A stretch of DNA of 61,300 nt from Acidobacteriota bacterium (GTDB lineage Bacteria > Acidobacteriota > Terriglobia > Terriglobales > Acidobacteriaceae), in contig QIAB01000073.1 in the NCBI GenBank assembly GCA_003225455.1, forward strand, positions 1 through 61,300, given 5' to 3'. This document shows positions 3,061-53,668 of the stretch, in pieces. The notes beneath the pieces were generated by a model that was not told the origin of the DNA, searched no databases, and worked only from the letters and a program-made list of their open reading frames with translations. Numbering within the stretch: the stretch's first letter is position 1; each line of letters starts with the position of its first letter. A program made the translations under genes and the position numbers.

Positions 3061-3118
3061 GGACGGGGCATAGCCCCGTCCCCACACAGTGCGATCTAGA
3101 CGGGCGAGGACGCCCGTC
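3061..3118. repeat. Two GC-rich palindromes (dispersed repeat, family A and a relative)
   Basis: Positions 3061-3081 form a perfect 9-bp stem (GGACGGGGC) with an ATA loop. Positions 3099-3118 form GACGGGCG-AGGA-CGCCCGTC, an 8-bp stem with a 4-nt loop. The second sequence recurs, sometimes reversed, at 4812, 8795, 26881 and 27312. No T-tract follows, so a role as intrinsic terminator is possible but not shown. Confidence 0.75.
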
Positions 3119-3148
3119 CTCCAGTTTCTTATGTTCGTCCTCTAACGC

Positions 3149-4811: not shown

Positions 4812-4860
4812 GGCGGGCGAGGACGCCCGCCAGACAGCCGGCGAAGGCGCCGGCGCTACT
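4812..4860. repeat. Composite palindromic element A-AGACA-B-GCTACT
   Basis: Palindrome A (4812-4831) is GGCGGGCG-AGGA-CGCCCGCC. It is followed by AGACA and palindrome B (4837-4854), GCCGGCG-AAGG-CGCCGGC, then GCTACT. The same order with a GGACA linker recurs, reversed, at 53621-53668 and, with a partial A, at 57321-57358. It fills most of the gap between the ligase and hydratase genes. Confidence 0.8.
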
Positions 4861-7805: not shown

Positions 7806-9785
7806 TTATTGTCGAAAGTAGTTCAAAATAGCTTCCGCTTGGCTCCGGGTCACGACTGCTGAAAGCGCGGCGACATCCGCCTGTTTCACGGCCTGCAAAC
7901 TGCCGAAATGCTCGAGCAGCCTGCGCGTGGTGCTCTCGCCTACGCCGGGGATTTCTCGCAGCTCAGTGGAGCGGTCACGCATTTGGCGGCGCTTGCGGTG
8001 GAAGGTTACAGCGAAGCGATGAGCTTCATCACGAATGAGCTGCACCAGATGCAGAACCGGCGAATGATGATCCAGAACGACGGGATCGTCTTCCTGGCCG
8101 CAGACGTAAATGATTTCCTCCCGCTTGGCAATGGCGGCTAAAGGCTGGTTGATAATTTCCAGAGCTTCGAGCGCCTCGGCTGCAGCGTGCAACTGGCCCA
8201 GGCCTCCATCAATCAGCACCAGGCTGGGCATATTTTTCTTTTCGTCGCGCAGACGTTTGTAGCGGCGGGTGACAACCTCGCGCATGGAGGCGAAGTCGTC
8301 CACGCCGTCCACACTGCGGATAATGAACTTGCGGTAATCGGATTTTTTCATCTGGCCGTTTTCCCACACCACCATCGATGCCACTGTTTCTGCGCCCTGA
8401 ATATGGGAGATGTCGAAACACTCGATCCGGCGCGGGAGCTCGGGCAGCCCCAAGGCATCTTGTAATGCTTCCTGAATGGCCTTGGTGTTTGGCTTCATGA
8501 CACGGAAACGCTGGTCGTACGATTGTTTGGCATTATTGCCGGCGAGATCAATCAGGGAACGTTTATCACCGCGCTGCGGGACGAGAATATTCACGCGAGT
8601 GGCGCGGCCGCCACCGGCAGCGAGTTGATCGGAGAGCAGGTCCTCGAGAGCTTCGCGATCTTCGAAATCAACTGGCACGTAGATATTCCGCGGCAGGTAC
8701 GGCTGGCCAATGTAGAGCTGATTGAGAAAGGCGGAAAGGAATTCGCCGGGATGAAAGGAATCATCTCTCGAGCTCACAGGCGAATCGATGGAGTGACGGG
8801 CGTCCTCGCCCGTCCACAATTCGGCACTCGGTCGGGAAACGGCCGAGCTTTGCTCGGCTGGGCGGGTGGGGGCACCCGCCCCTACGTGTTCCGACGTGGG
8901 TTCCAGCTCCGGCAGGTCTTCCCAGAAGAATTCACGGCGATCAAGCACGCGTCCGCCACGCATGTGGAATAGATTTACCGCTAGCATGCCGTTTTCGTAG
9001 TGATAGCCGAAGACGTCGGCATCGTCGCCTTCGACGGCGGCAATGCGCTGCTTTTCCTGAAGCTGTTCGACAGTCGAGATCAGGTCGCGGTATTTGGCTG
9101 CGCGTTCATACTCCTGTGCCTGCGCGGCTTTCTCCATACGTTCGCGTAGCGATCGGGAAAGGTCCGTGGGGCGGCCTTCCAGAAACAGTTTCACATCGCG
9201 CACCGCTTCCTGGTAGGCCTCGGGAGTGGTGAGTCCTTGCACACACGGACCTAAGCATCGCCCGATGTAATACTGCAAGCAGGGGCGCGGGTGAAAGCGA
9301 TTGAGATCCACCTTGCAAGAGGGGATCAAGAAGTGGCGGTGAATCAAGTCCACGATGCGATAAGCCAGATTGGCAGGGAAGTACGGACCGTAGTACGAGC
9401 TGCCGTCTTTCCTTAGGCGGCGAGTGACATAAACACGTGGAAAGCGTTCGCTCAACGTGAGCTTTACGTAAGGATAAGTCTTATCGTCGCGCAACAGGAT
9501 ATTGAAGCGGGGCTTCTTCTGCTTGATGAGGTGATTCTCAAGCGCCAGAGCTTCCTTGTTGTTGGCGACGACGATGTAATCGACATCGACCGCCTCGCGG
9601 ACGAGCGTGCCGGTTTTGGCGTCGACGATACGGCCTTCGTGGAAGTAAGAACTGACCCGGCTGCGCAGGTTCTTGGCCTTGCCGACGTAAATGATGTCGC
9701 CTTCGGCGTTCTTGTAGAGATACACGCCGGCGGACGCAGGAATGGTGCGGATTTTGGCGTGAAGATCCACGGAGTCAGAATCCAT
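7806..9785 (-). CDS. uvrC: Excinuclease ABC subunit C
   Basis: This is the UvrC nuclease of nucleotide excision repair, which incises on both sides of a UvrB-marked lesion. The N-terminal GIY-YIG domain starts at GVYLYK (about residue 20) with IIYVGKAKNLRSRV. A UvrB-interacting UVR motif follows near residues 205-240. The RNase H-like domain contains ECFDISHIQG and VLIDGGLGQL, and a helix-hairpin-helix (IPGVGESTTRRLLEHFG) ends the protein. About 45 extra residues lie between EDLPELEP and HPGEF. They are encoded by three GC palindromes and flanks at 8795-8880 and include APTRPAEQ and WTGEDARHS. The insertion keeps the frame and lies between domains, so activity may be retained. Confidence 0.95.
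   Translation of the reverse strand: MDSDSVDLHAKIRTIPASAGVYLYKNAEGDIIYVGKAKNLRSRVSSYFHEGRIVDAKTGTLVREAVDVDYIVVANNKEALALENHLIKQKKPRFNILLRDDKTYPYVKLTLSERFPRVYVTRRLRKDGSSYYGPYFPANLAYRIVDLIHRHFLIPSCKVDLNRFHPRPCLQYYIGRCLGPCVQGLTTPEAYQEAVRDVKLFLEGRPTDLSRSLRERMEKAAQAQEYERAAKYRDLISTVEQLQEKQRIAAVEGDDADVFGYHYENGMLAVNLFHMRGGRVLDRREFFWEDLPELEPTSEHVGAGAPTRPAEQSSAVSRPSAELWTGEDARHSIDSPVSSRDDSFHPGEFLSAFLNQLYIGQPYLPRNIYVPVDFEDREALEDLLSDQLAAGGGRATRVNILVPQRGDKRSLIDLAGNNAKQSYDQRFRVMKPNTKAIQEALQDALGLPELPRRIECFDISHIQGAETVASMVVWENGQMKKSDYRKFIIRSVDGVDDFASMREVVTRRYKRLRDEKKNMPSLVLIDGGLGQLHAAAEALEALEIINQPLAAIAKREEIIYVCGQEDDPVVLDHHSPVLHLVQLIRDEAHRFAVTFHRKRRQMRDRSTELREIPGVGESTTRRLLEHFGSLQAVKQADVAALSAVVTRSQAEAILNYFRQ
8795..8880. 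repeat. Three palindromes inserted in frame within uvrC
   Basis: 8795-8814 is the perfect 8+4+8 palindrome GACGGGCG-TCCT-CGCCCGTC, the reverse complement of the copy at 3099. 8842-8858 is GCCGAGC-TTT-GCTCGGC. 8861-8880 is an 8-bp stem GGCGGGTG/CACCCGCC apart from its central bases. Together they encode about 30 residues of a region that UvrC proteins normally lack. Confidence 0.8.
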
Positions 9786-22425: not shown

Positions 22426-22453
22426 GGGAATCCTTCGCTCGCGAAGGATTCCC
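22426..22453. repeat. Perfect 12-bp hairpin in a TCATCCTG-type repeat
   Basis: GGGAATCCTTCG pairs with CGAAGGATTCCC around a CTCG loop. It lies in a run of GTCATCCTG/GCCATCCCG units. Confidence 0.75.
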
Positions 22454-26880: not shown

Positions 26881-26900
26881 GGCGGGCGAGGGCGCCCGCC
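26881..26900. repeat. Family-A palindrome interrupting a gene
   Basis: GGCGGGCG-AGGG-CGCCCGCC is a perfect 8-bp stem. It sits exactly between the two halves of the Cys/His motif described for the surrounding gene. Confidence 0.8.
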
Positions 26901-27275: not shown

Positions 27276-27523
27276 CGCGGACGCCCTCGCCCGCGGAGGA
27301 GTCTTGTGGAGGGCGGGCGTCCTCGCCCGCCGAAGAGTCTTGTGTGGCGCGGACACTCTTGTCCGCGAACGAATCTTTGCCGGACAAAAAATCCCCCGTG
27401 GCCGAATTGCCCACATCCCCCAAAGAAACTCACGTAGCGCGGACGCCCTCGTCCGCGAACGAATCTTTGCCGGAGAAAAAATCTCCTGTGGCAGAACTGC
27501 CCTCGTCCGCGCATGAATCTTCA
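27276..27523 (+). repeat. Coding repeat tract made of dispersed palindromes
   Basis: Palindromes at 27276-27295, 27312-27331, 27348-27367 and 27438-27457 all lie within one reading frame. Superimposed is a 90-bp tandem unit (27344-27433 and 27434-27523) encoding VART..SANESLP(D/E)KKSPVAELP. The 27312 copy is the exact reverse complement of the intergenic copy at 4812, and the 27348 copy matches the intergenic copy at 48304. Confidence 0.8.
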
Positions 27524-48298: not shown

Positions 48299-48323
48299 TG
48301 TGGCGCGGACACTCTTGTCCGCG
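48299..48323. repeat. Family-C palindrome, intergenic copy
   Basis: CGCGGACA-CTCT-TGTCCGCG at 48304-48323, with TGTGG before it. The same 25 bp occurs inside the coding repeat tract near 27343-27367. Confidence 0.8.
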
Positions 48324-53623: not shown

Positions 53624-53668
53624 CGCCGGCGTCCCCGCCGGCTGTCCAGGCGGGCGTCTCGCCCGCCG
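53621..53668. repeat. Composite palindromic element, reverse orientation
   Basis: Read on the minus strand: GGCGGGCG-AGA-CGCCCGCC, then TGGACA, then GCCGGCG-GGGA-CGCCGGC and GCTA. This is the same module as 4812-4860. The TAG stop of rluB forms its edge. Confidence 0.8.

Follow-up and report, generated by a model that had tools for sequence, protein, structure and literature searches.

Short hairpin repeats of the REP type lie in frame within a variable UvrC loop and in many conserved genes of an Acidobacteriota genome

Palindromic DNA in the uvrC reading frame

How does palindromic DNA come to lie inside the intact reading frame of a conserved repair gene? The question is raised by uvrC in the window, by which we mean the whole 61,300-nucleotide stretch of Acidobacteriota DNA that was analyzed. 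A first-pass annotation had claimed that about 45 extra residues between EDLPELEP and HPGEF of the encoded protein are made of palindromes; we count 48 residues between these motifs and find three perfect palindromes in the loop. Its description of three consecutive palindromes needs amendment in one respect: all three are indeed perfect, but positions 8842-8888 form a single two-hairpin unit rather than two palindromes. The features concerned are the following.

7806-9785, minus strand: uvrC, excinuclease ABC subunit C, 659 aa, intact ORF (Pfam and NCBIfam)
8742-8918, minus strand: hypervariable UvrC loop of 59 aa, from DLPE... to ...HPGE (coding sequence and structure prediction)
8860-8881, in the uvrC loop: perfect palindrome, 9-bp stem, 4-nt loop
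8842-8858, in the uvrC loop: perfect palindrome, 7-bp stem, 3-nt loop
8795-8814, in the uvrC loop: perfect palindrome, 8-bp stem, 4-nt loop
8842-8888, minus strand: class A REP with tag CACGTAG (8882-8888), hairpin 1 (8860-8881) and hairpin 2 (8842-8858), reading HVGAGAPTRPAEQSSA (genome-wide R1 match C174:8842-8888)
8787-8814, plus strand: class B REP, inverted relative to uvrC, with GATGGAG (8787-8793), one extra t and a hairpin (8795-8814); the uvrC strand gives TGEDARHSI
3099-3122, minus strand: second class B copy of the window, with hairpin 3099-3118 and GGAG tag 3119-3122 (sequence match; described as intergenic in the first-pass annotation)

On the coding strand the loop reads CACGTAG, the 9-bp hairpin, an A, the 7-bp hairpin, a spacer, GACGGGCGaggaCGCCCGTC and actCCATC; on its own strand the class B unit reads GATGGAG(t)GACGGGCGTCCTCGCCCGTC. 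Reverse-complemented, the hairpin at 8795-8814 is identical to 3099-3118, just as had been noted before. The uvrC ORF passes the NCBIfam model PRK14669 (1115.8 against a cut-off of 1108), and the GIY-YIG, UVR, and RNase H plus HhH domains are all present in its product (Pfam). Three such palindromes were obtained in none of 2000 first-order Markov resamplings of the loop, and the whole window holds 24 palindromes with stems of at least 8 (against 4 to 10 in five resamplings). General repeat finding on the loop DNA alone listed no inverted repeats, although the palindromes are present there. A known RNA family can be ruled out as the identity of the repeats, since Rfam at the gathering threshold gives two tRNAs and nothing else in the whole window.

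Structure prediction, proposed in the first-pass annotation as a check, places the insert in a low-confidence coil. In the AlphaFold run (on an alignment of 37 sequences including the query), residues 296-341 have a pLDDT of about 27-34 and, within the first RNase H-like domain, follow strand 279-288 and precede helix 346-358, with flanks at about 75-90. The whole UvrC model is modest (mean pLDDT 57.7, pTM 0.32), and because of this the low values of the insert are only suggestive of a disordered loop. A sequence search found no PDB chain over residues 105-435 of UvrC.

Repeat classes A and B and the RAYT transposases

The two units differ in size: class A spans 47 nt with two hairpins and class B about 28 nt. 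We built a covariance model of class A (R1) from 21 uvrC-loop copies of different genomes; these were retained from 29 candidates on the coding strand only, after eight without a tag or proper stems were excluded by eye. In the window's own genome (a 4.99-Mb draft of 195 contigs with an estimated contamination of 4.51%) R1 gives at least 122 matches at E<=0.01, with 150 of 3940 candidates scored. Their tags are mostly GTGG (46 of 105) or GTAG (44 of 105). Inverted pairs of class A (A and A') occur in the Dus, ABC transporter and TGT genes, and also in three uvrC loops (L078, L095, L099). The class B hairpin pattern, GACGGGCGNNNNCGCCCGTC, is found at 24 places in the genome (none for the pattern read backwards). 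Eight of these fall within class A units; among the other 16, the GGAG tag accompanies 12 (with one extra base in the window copy) and is missing from four.

The stems of class A covary. Over the 21 aligned copies 92.6% of cells are paired and 35 cells are changed on both sides, and the covariation score was reached by none of 500 shuffles. It might be argued that this reflects one ancient, clade-wide insertion with stems kept by compensatory mutation as a functional mRNA or DNA hairpin (for instance for translation pausing in UvrC), the more so as 27 of the 31 class A matches in uvrC loops have the coding orientation and the 21 aligned copies have one common reading frame. Nonetheless, four stem variants that recur in uvrC loops of other lineages co-exist as subfamilies in this one genome (GGACAGCCG 19, GGACGGGCG 12, GGGCGGGTG 10 and GGGCGGACG 4), and differing source copies explain the covariation. 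Compensatory evolution in situ is rejected as its main cause on these grounds; the covariation is attributed to independent insertion of different subfamilies, or to conversion. Together with the scattered presence on the tree and the frame use in other genes (both described below), this makes a single ancient insertion very unlikely.

The genome contains 11 Y1_Tnp matches, two of which are RAYTs associated with hairpins of interest. The first RAYT (L143 2658-3149, minus strand) scores 81.6 against a cut-off of 80 for NF047646 (REP-associated tyrosine transposase). At its 3' end the ORF runs into a class A match. An inverted unit of the same construction (CGTAG, then a 9-bp and a 7-bp hairpin) is situated upstream and is absent from the listed R1 matches. 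Because this RAYT lies between inverted class A-type units, we identify the repeats as REP elements. The repeats show the hallmarks that PMC3733652 gives for GTAG-type REPs: the tag, the hairpin, the number of copies, the inverted pairs and the link to a RAYT.

The second RAYT (L144 3917-4465, minus strand) scores 93.9 against the same cut-off of 80. A class B hairpin lies upstream of its first ATG; the link is one of nearness only, and another hairpin class is closer. Hairpins of the form GCGCGGGCG...CGCCCGCGC, with GTGTGG / CCCACAC ends, surround this gene (L144 3826-3846, 3893-3913 and 4425-4445), and this class rather than class B may be its true partner repeat. At the other nine Y1_Tnp loci no class A or B hairpin is among the hairpins listed; three of them (L046, L047, L054) have no hairpins at the threshold used and the others have other hairpins. 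Judged from these gene neighborhoods, a RAYT is probably the mover of the class A and B repeats.

Several other hairpins were seen in the window. CGCGGAC...GTCCGCG hairpins at 27348-27367, 27438-27457 and 48304-48323 have GTGTGG, ACGTAG or ATGTGG in front of them and, in two of the three cases, GAACGAA behind them; they probably form a further REP family. Palindromes of the form GGCGGGCG...CGCCCGCC, which are stem variants related to class B, occur at 4812-4831, 26881-26900, 27312-27331 and 53649-53667. A long palindrome with a 13-bp stem, GGGAATCCTTCGCTCGCGAAGGATTCCC, lies at 22426-22453.

Host genes and the changing occupants of the UvrC loop

The repeats are not peculiar to uvrC, which is rejected as the sole host: at least 28 of the 105 class A matches examined lie in conserved genes, 22 in number, with Pfam domains around or flanking the copy. 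For this count 108 of the 122 R1 matches (33 bits and up) were taken, three of which fell outside the fetched loci; there is some overlap between matches. Thirty ORFs were put to Pfam, seven of which (L155, L164, L182, L189, L196, L218, L231) were set aside as unclear cases; UvrC was added from the Pfam result given above. The figure of 28 is a lower bound, as it comes from the longer covering ORFs, and copies were assigned to genes manually using the Pfam domain limits. The weakest case is Dus, where both elements lie beyond the aligned part of the profile. The class A hosts are as follows.

Two copies each: UbiD, Dus, ABC transporter, MnmG, TGT, LipB
One copy: Ser/Thr kinase, UvrC, SelA, S9 peptidase, MetH, CarB-like protein, amidohydrolase
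One copy, within the DEAD domain: RecG
One copy: ValRS, class II ribonucleotide reductase, AIRS-domain protein, aromatic amino-acid lyase
One copy: radical-SAM methylthiotransferase-like protein, Lhr, GHMP kinase, LpxB

The earlier statement that the elements enter essential-type genes can be upheld as far as in-frame sites in 22 conserved genes are concerned, but "essential-type" is a loose term for uvrC, which is conserved, yet usually dispensable for growth. Likewise, "direct evidence" of tolerance as linkers was put too strongly: the extra loop does lie in intact frames, and it is from these frames that tolerance is deduced.

Frame use among the in-gene copies is uneven. One of the six frames is used by 17 of the 28, yielding HVGTAALGRPxERSS-like peptides; another, giving ELRSAGRxRAPVPT, is used by seven, and other frames by four. 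Since every frame of a class A consensus is free of stops when its tag is GTGG, this preference more likely reflects the peptide made. Copies elsewhere favor the same frame as those in UvrC, which counts against the single ancient insertion considered above.

RecG and TGT were compared in relatives (25 loci each, one RecG fragment being short of the loop). Class A is present in RecG of G000 and G009, and class A pairs in TGT of G000, G009 and G022; most others have shorter loops. For RecG, TGT and UvrC alike, the orthologues of relatives include short-loop versions without class A, and the common denominator of the three sites seems to be a permissive loop. In G000 the adjacent genes selA and recG each have a class A insertion of their own, 1.4 kb apart (C103:20186-20232 and C103:21606-21652). 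Some TGT loops (L263, L264, L269) contain peptides resembling the products of short direct repeats, e.g. PTTDHRPLTTDH; such repeats are perhaps another source of in-frame insertions.

For UvrC itself we analyzed 104 loci, chosen for holding uvrC, of which 99 remained for the tree and the palindrome count after removal of five duplicates of named loci. Going by the names on the closest UvrC records, the window probably stems from an uncultured acidobacterium of the Terriglobia / Ca. Sulfotelmatobacter neighborhood. The loop ranges from 13 to 124 aa in the clade. The first-pass annotation had considered the insert absent from usual UvrC proteins, which is true for the repeats, but the loop itself varies naturally. 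In all 104 loci the loop is spanned by a single open frame that continues for 100 aa or more in both directions; this is partly built in by picking the best stop-to-stop ORF, and the presence of both sides was checked separately. Each of the other five frames meets a stop within the loop in 44 to 76 of the 104 loci. Loops contain 55 palindromes in 12,975 nt (against a mean of 6.9 and a maximum of 12 in 30 resamplings), a higher density than in the rest of uvrC (105 in 183,268 nt). With R1, 35 of the 38 matches in 95 uvrC loci fall in loops, which make up 12,723 of 574,412 bases, an enrichment to be read with the training of R1 on loop copies in mind; four of the 35 are weakly detected class B hairpins.

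At least one of five repeat classes occupies the loop in 55 of the 99 rows. Classes B to E were assigned by eye, and the three additional ones are recognized as follows.

Class C: GTGTGGG...GGGTCTCYGACCC...CCCACAC
Class D: ends TTGTCATCCTGAG...CTCAGGATGACAA, with peptide CHPERSEG
Class E: GAGACGTTGCaaGCAACGTCTCTAC

Class D is carried by loops L082, L084, L091, L093, L094, L101, L102, L112 and L113 and is translated as CHPERSEG...SARKERGPQDDK. Its ends give 117 matches in one related genome and are present in all eight genomes tested (own genome included), whatever class fills their uvrC. Class A was found in all seven related genomes tested, with 2 to 22 strong copies each. As related genomes hold both A and D ends whichever class is in uvrC, the loop occupant is, on this sequence evidence, one draw from a larger stock of repeats.

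The classes were then mapped on a UvrC tree made without the loop columns. The fewest changes needed, with the mean of 200 label shuffles, are as follows.

Class A, 27 rows: 22 changes (shuffle mean 24.0)
Class B, 11 rows: 11 changes (shuffle mean 10.6)
Class C, 5 rows: 4 changes (shuffle mean 4.9)
Class D, 12 rows: 12 changes (shuffle mean 11.5)
Class E, 5 rows: 4 changes (shuffle mean 4.9)

The classes are distributed nearly at random on the tree. Neighboring rows differ (D in L102 against A in L104; B in L107 against C in L109), and L057 has class A whereas its near neighbor L114 has an empty loop of 15 aa. The counts lump gain and loss, and errors in the tree may have raised them. As this is a quick single-gene tree with limited support (24 of its 96 inner branches reach 95), the scatter shows fast turnover of loop occupants rather than exact counts. 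An insert conserved in distant UvrC proteins, a prospect raised in the first-pass annotation, is not what we observe, the class differing even between close relatives; sister rows of different class and the empty loops further speak against an ancient clade-wide insertion.

The same pattern bears on whether the elements spread with uvrC alleles by homologous recombination between species, instead of by new insertions. The repeat classes are common to soil relatives and sister rows differ, as such exchange might produce, but the loop sequence beside the elements changes along with the class, and class A copies of their own exist in all seven related genomes tested. We regard this route as unlikely. 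An assembly or binning artefact, to which the draft state and estimated contamination of the genome might point, is extremely unlikely because these classes fill this loop in 55 of the 99 sequences, including 51 named records from several projects (almost all with the label MAG), and the frame is open through the loop in every locus.

A further possibility is that the UvrC loop is actively targeted or positively selected, with insertions altering UvrC activity, for example towards a mutator state; Di Nocera et al. 2013 (PMC3733652) speculate that REP tagging alters repair genes. Five repeat classes at one loop, strongly enriched relative to flanking DNA, agree with this idea, as does the fact that RecG and Lhr carry insertions too. 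However, the 22 host genes are for the most part unrelated to repair, and TGT and RecG loops are also occupied in relatives; moreover, enrichment in the loop is expected anyway if insertions elsewhere in the gene are lethal. Targeting or selection of this kind is accordingly rated as quite improbable. There is also an outside chance that, in this acidobacterial family, UvrC above all, but also RecG and TGT, offer loops that act as standing docking sites for different selfish repeats swapped among close relatives, either targeted or selected.

Origin of the insert, known systems and meaning

Summarizing, short, mobile-looking hairpin repeats sit in frame in one floppy UvrC loop and in many conserved genes. 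As these hairpin repeats were inserted without breaking the reading frame, they are probably selfish DNA translated as a spare protein loop. We consider it highly probable that REP hairpins were copied into a surface loop of UvrC, translated as unstructured spacer, moved by RAYTs and retained by selection in permissive loops. On this account, the GTAG-tagged two-hairpin class A and the inverted, GGAG-tagged single-hairpin class B would have been copied into the loop, and both would be translated as unstructured spacer. The genome's own RAYT (HUH/Y1) transposases would probably move the repeats by acting on DNA in single-stranded form. Selection would purge insertions that disrupt the frame or fall in folded regions, and survivors would be those in permissive loops and in a frame giving a mild soluble peptide, followed by divergence, loss and replacement. 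The insert would be neutral for UvrC.

The kind of phenomenon is already known, since both intragenic REPs (PMC3733652) and Rickettsia palindromic elements (RPEs) have been reported in frame. According to PMC3733652, REPs lie within genes in several species, with many of them in repair genes, among these excinuclease subunits, and in-frame copies occur in uvr, rec and tRNA-modification genes, with UvrABCD proteins named as hosts; its authors propose flexible linkers or loops for them. Acidobacteria appear there as having transposases with unrelated terminal repeats (TIRYTs). Our repeats share with the GTAG-tagged REPs of that source a GTAG-like unpaired tag, GC-rich hairpins, inverted pairs, an adjacent RAYT and some in-frame copies. 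They differ from those described there in that class A is a 47-nt two-hairpin unit of fixed layout, and in having at least 22 host genes in one genome (the supplementary gene lists of that paper may include uvrC). That source mentions a single instance of a shared site, recB in two Xanthomonas species, whereas here one loop is filled by several classes across a family.

RPEs (Ogata 2000, 2002) are likewise palindromic repeats translated in frame within conserved protein genes (PMC2229807, PMC10969869), and for gmk the RPE-bearing product was reported to be made and active with a changed substrate affinity (PMC2229807). In contrast to RPEs, described as single long palindromes of about 105-150 bp in Rickettsia, we find REP units of 28-47 nt in Acidobacteriota accompanied by RAYTs: they behave like RPEs but are not members of that family. 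Class D has MITE-like inverted ends, in which it resembles bacterial MITEs such as ERIC and Correia/NEMIS (PMC2229807). In the open-licence literature we found no publication on a REP in frame in uvrC, on the peptide CHPERSEG, or on Sulfotelmatobacter repeats with a transposase. What appears to be new is that Acidobacteriota possess a GTAG-type REP with two hairpins, that one genome has at least 22 host genes for it and that five classes reuse one loop across a family.

The findings give recurring peptides in proteins of this group (HVGTAALGRPxERSS, TGEDAR and CHPERSEG) a likely origin in repeats. They also amount to a natural insertion experiment, with dozens of lineages, one loop, several classes and empty relatives to compare, through which the speculation, already in print, that repair proteins are changed by REP insertion becomes directly testable. 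If it were true that the loops are docking sites, a repair nuclease would bear a rapidly changing repeat-derived segment that is more than tolerated. Overall, our results suggest that conserved genes of a major soil phylum can routinely gain new protein sequence from REP/RAYT repeats, elements that are mostly regarded as extragenic.
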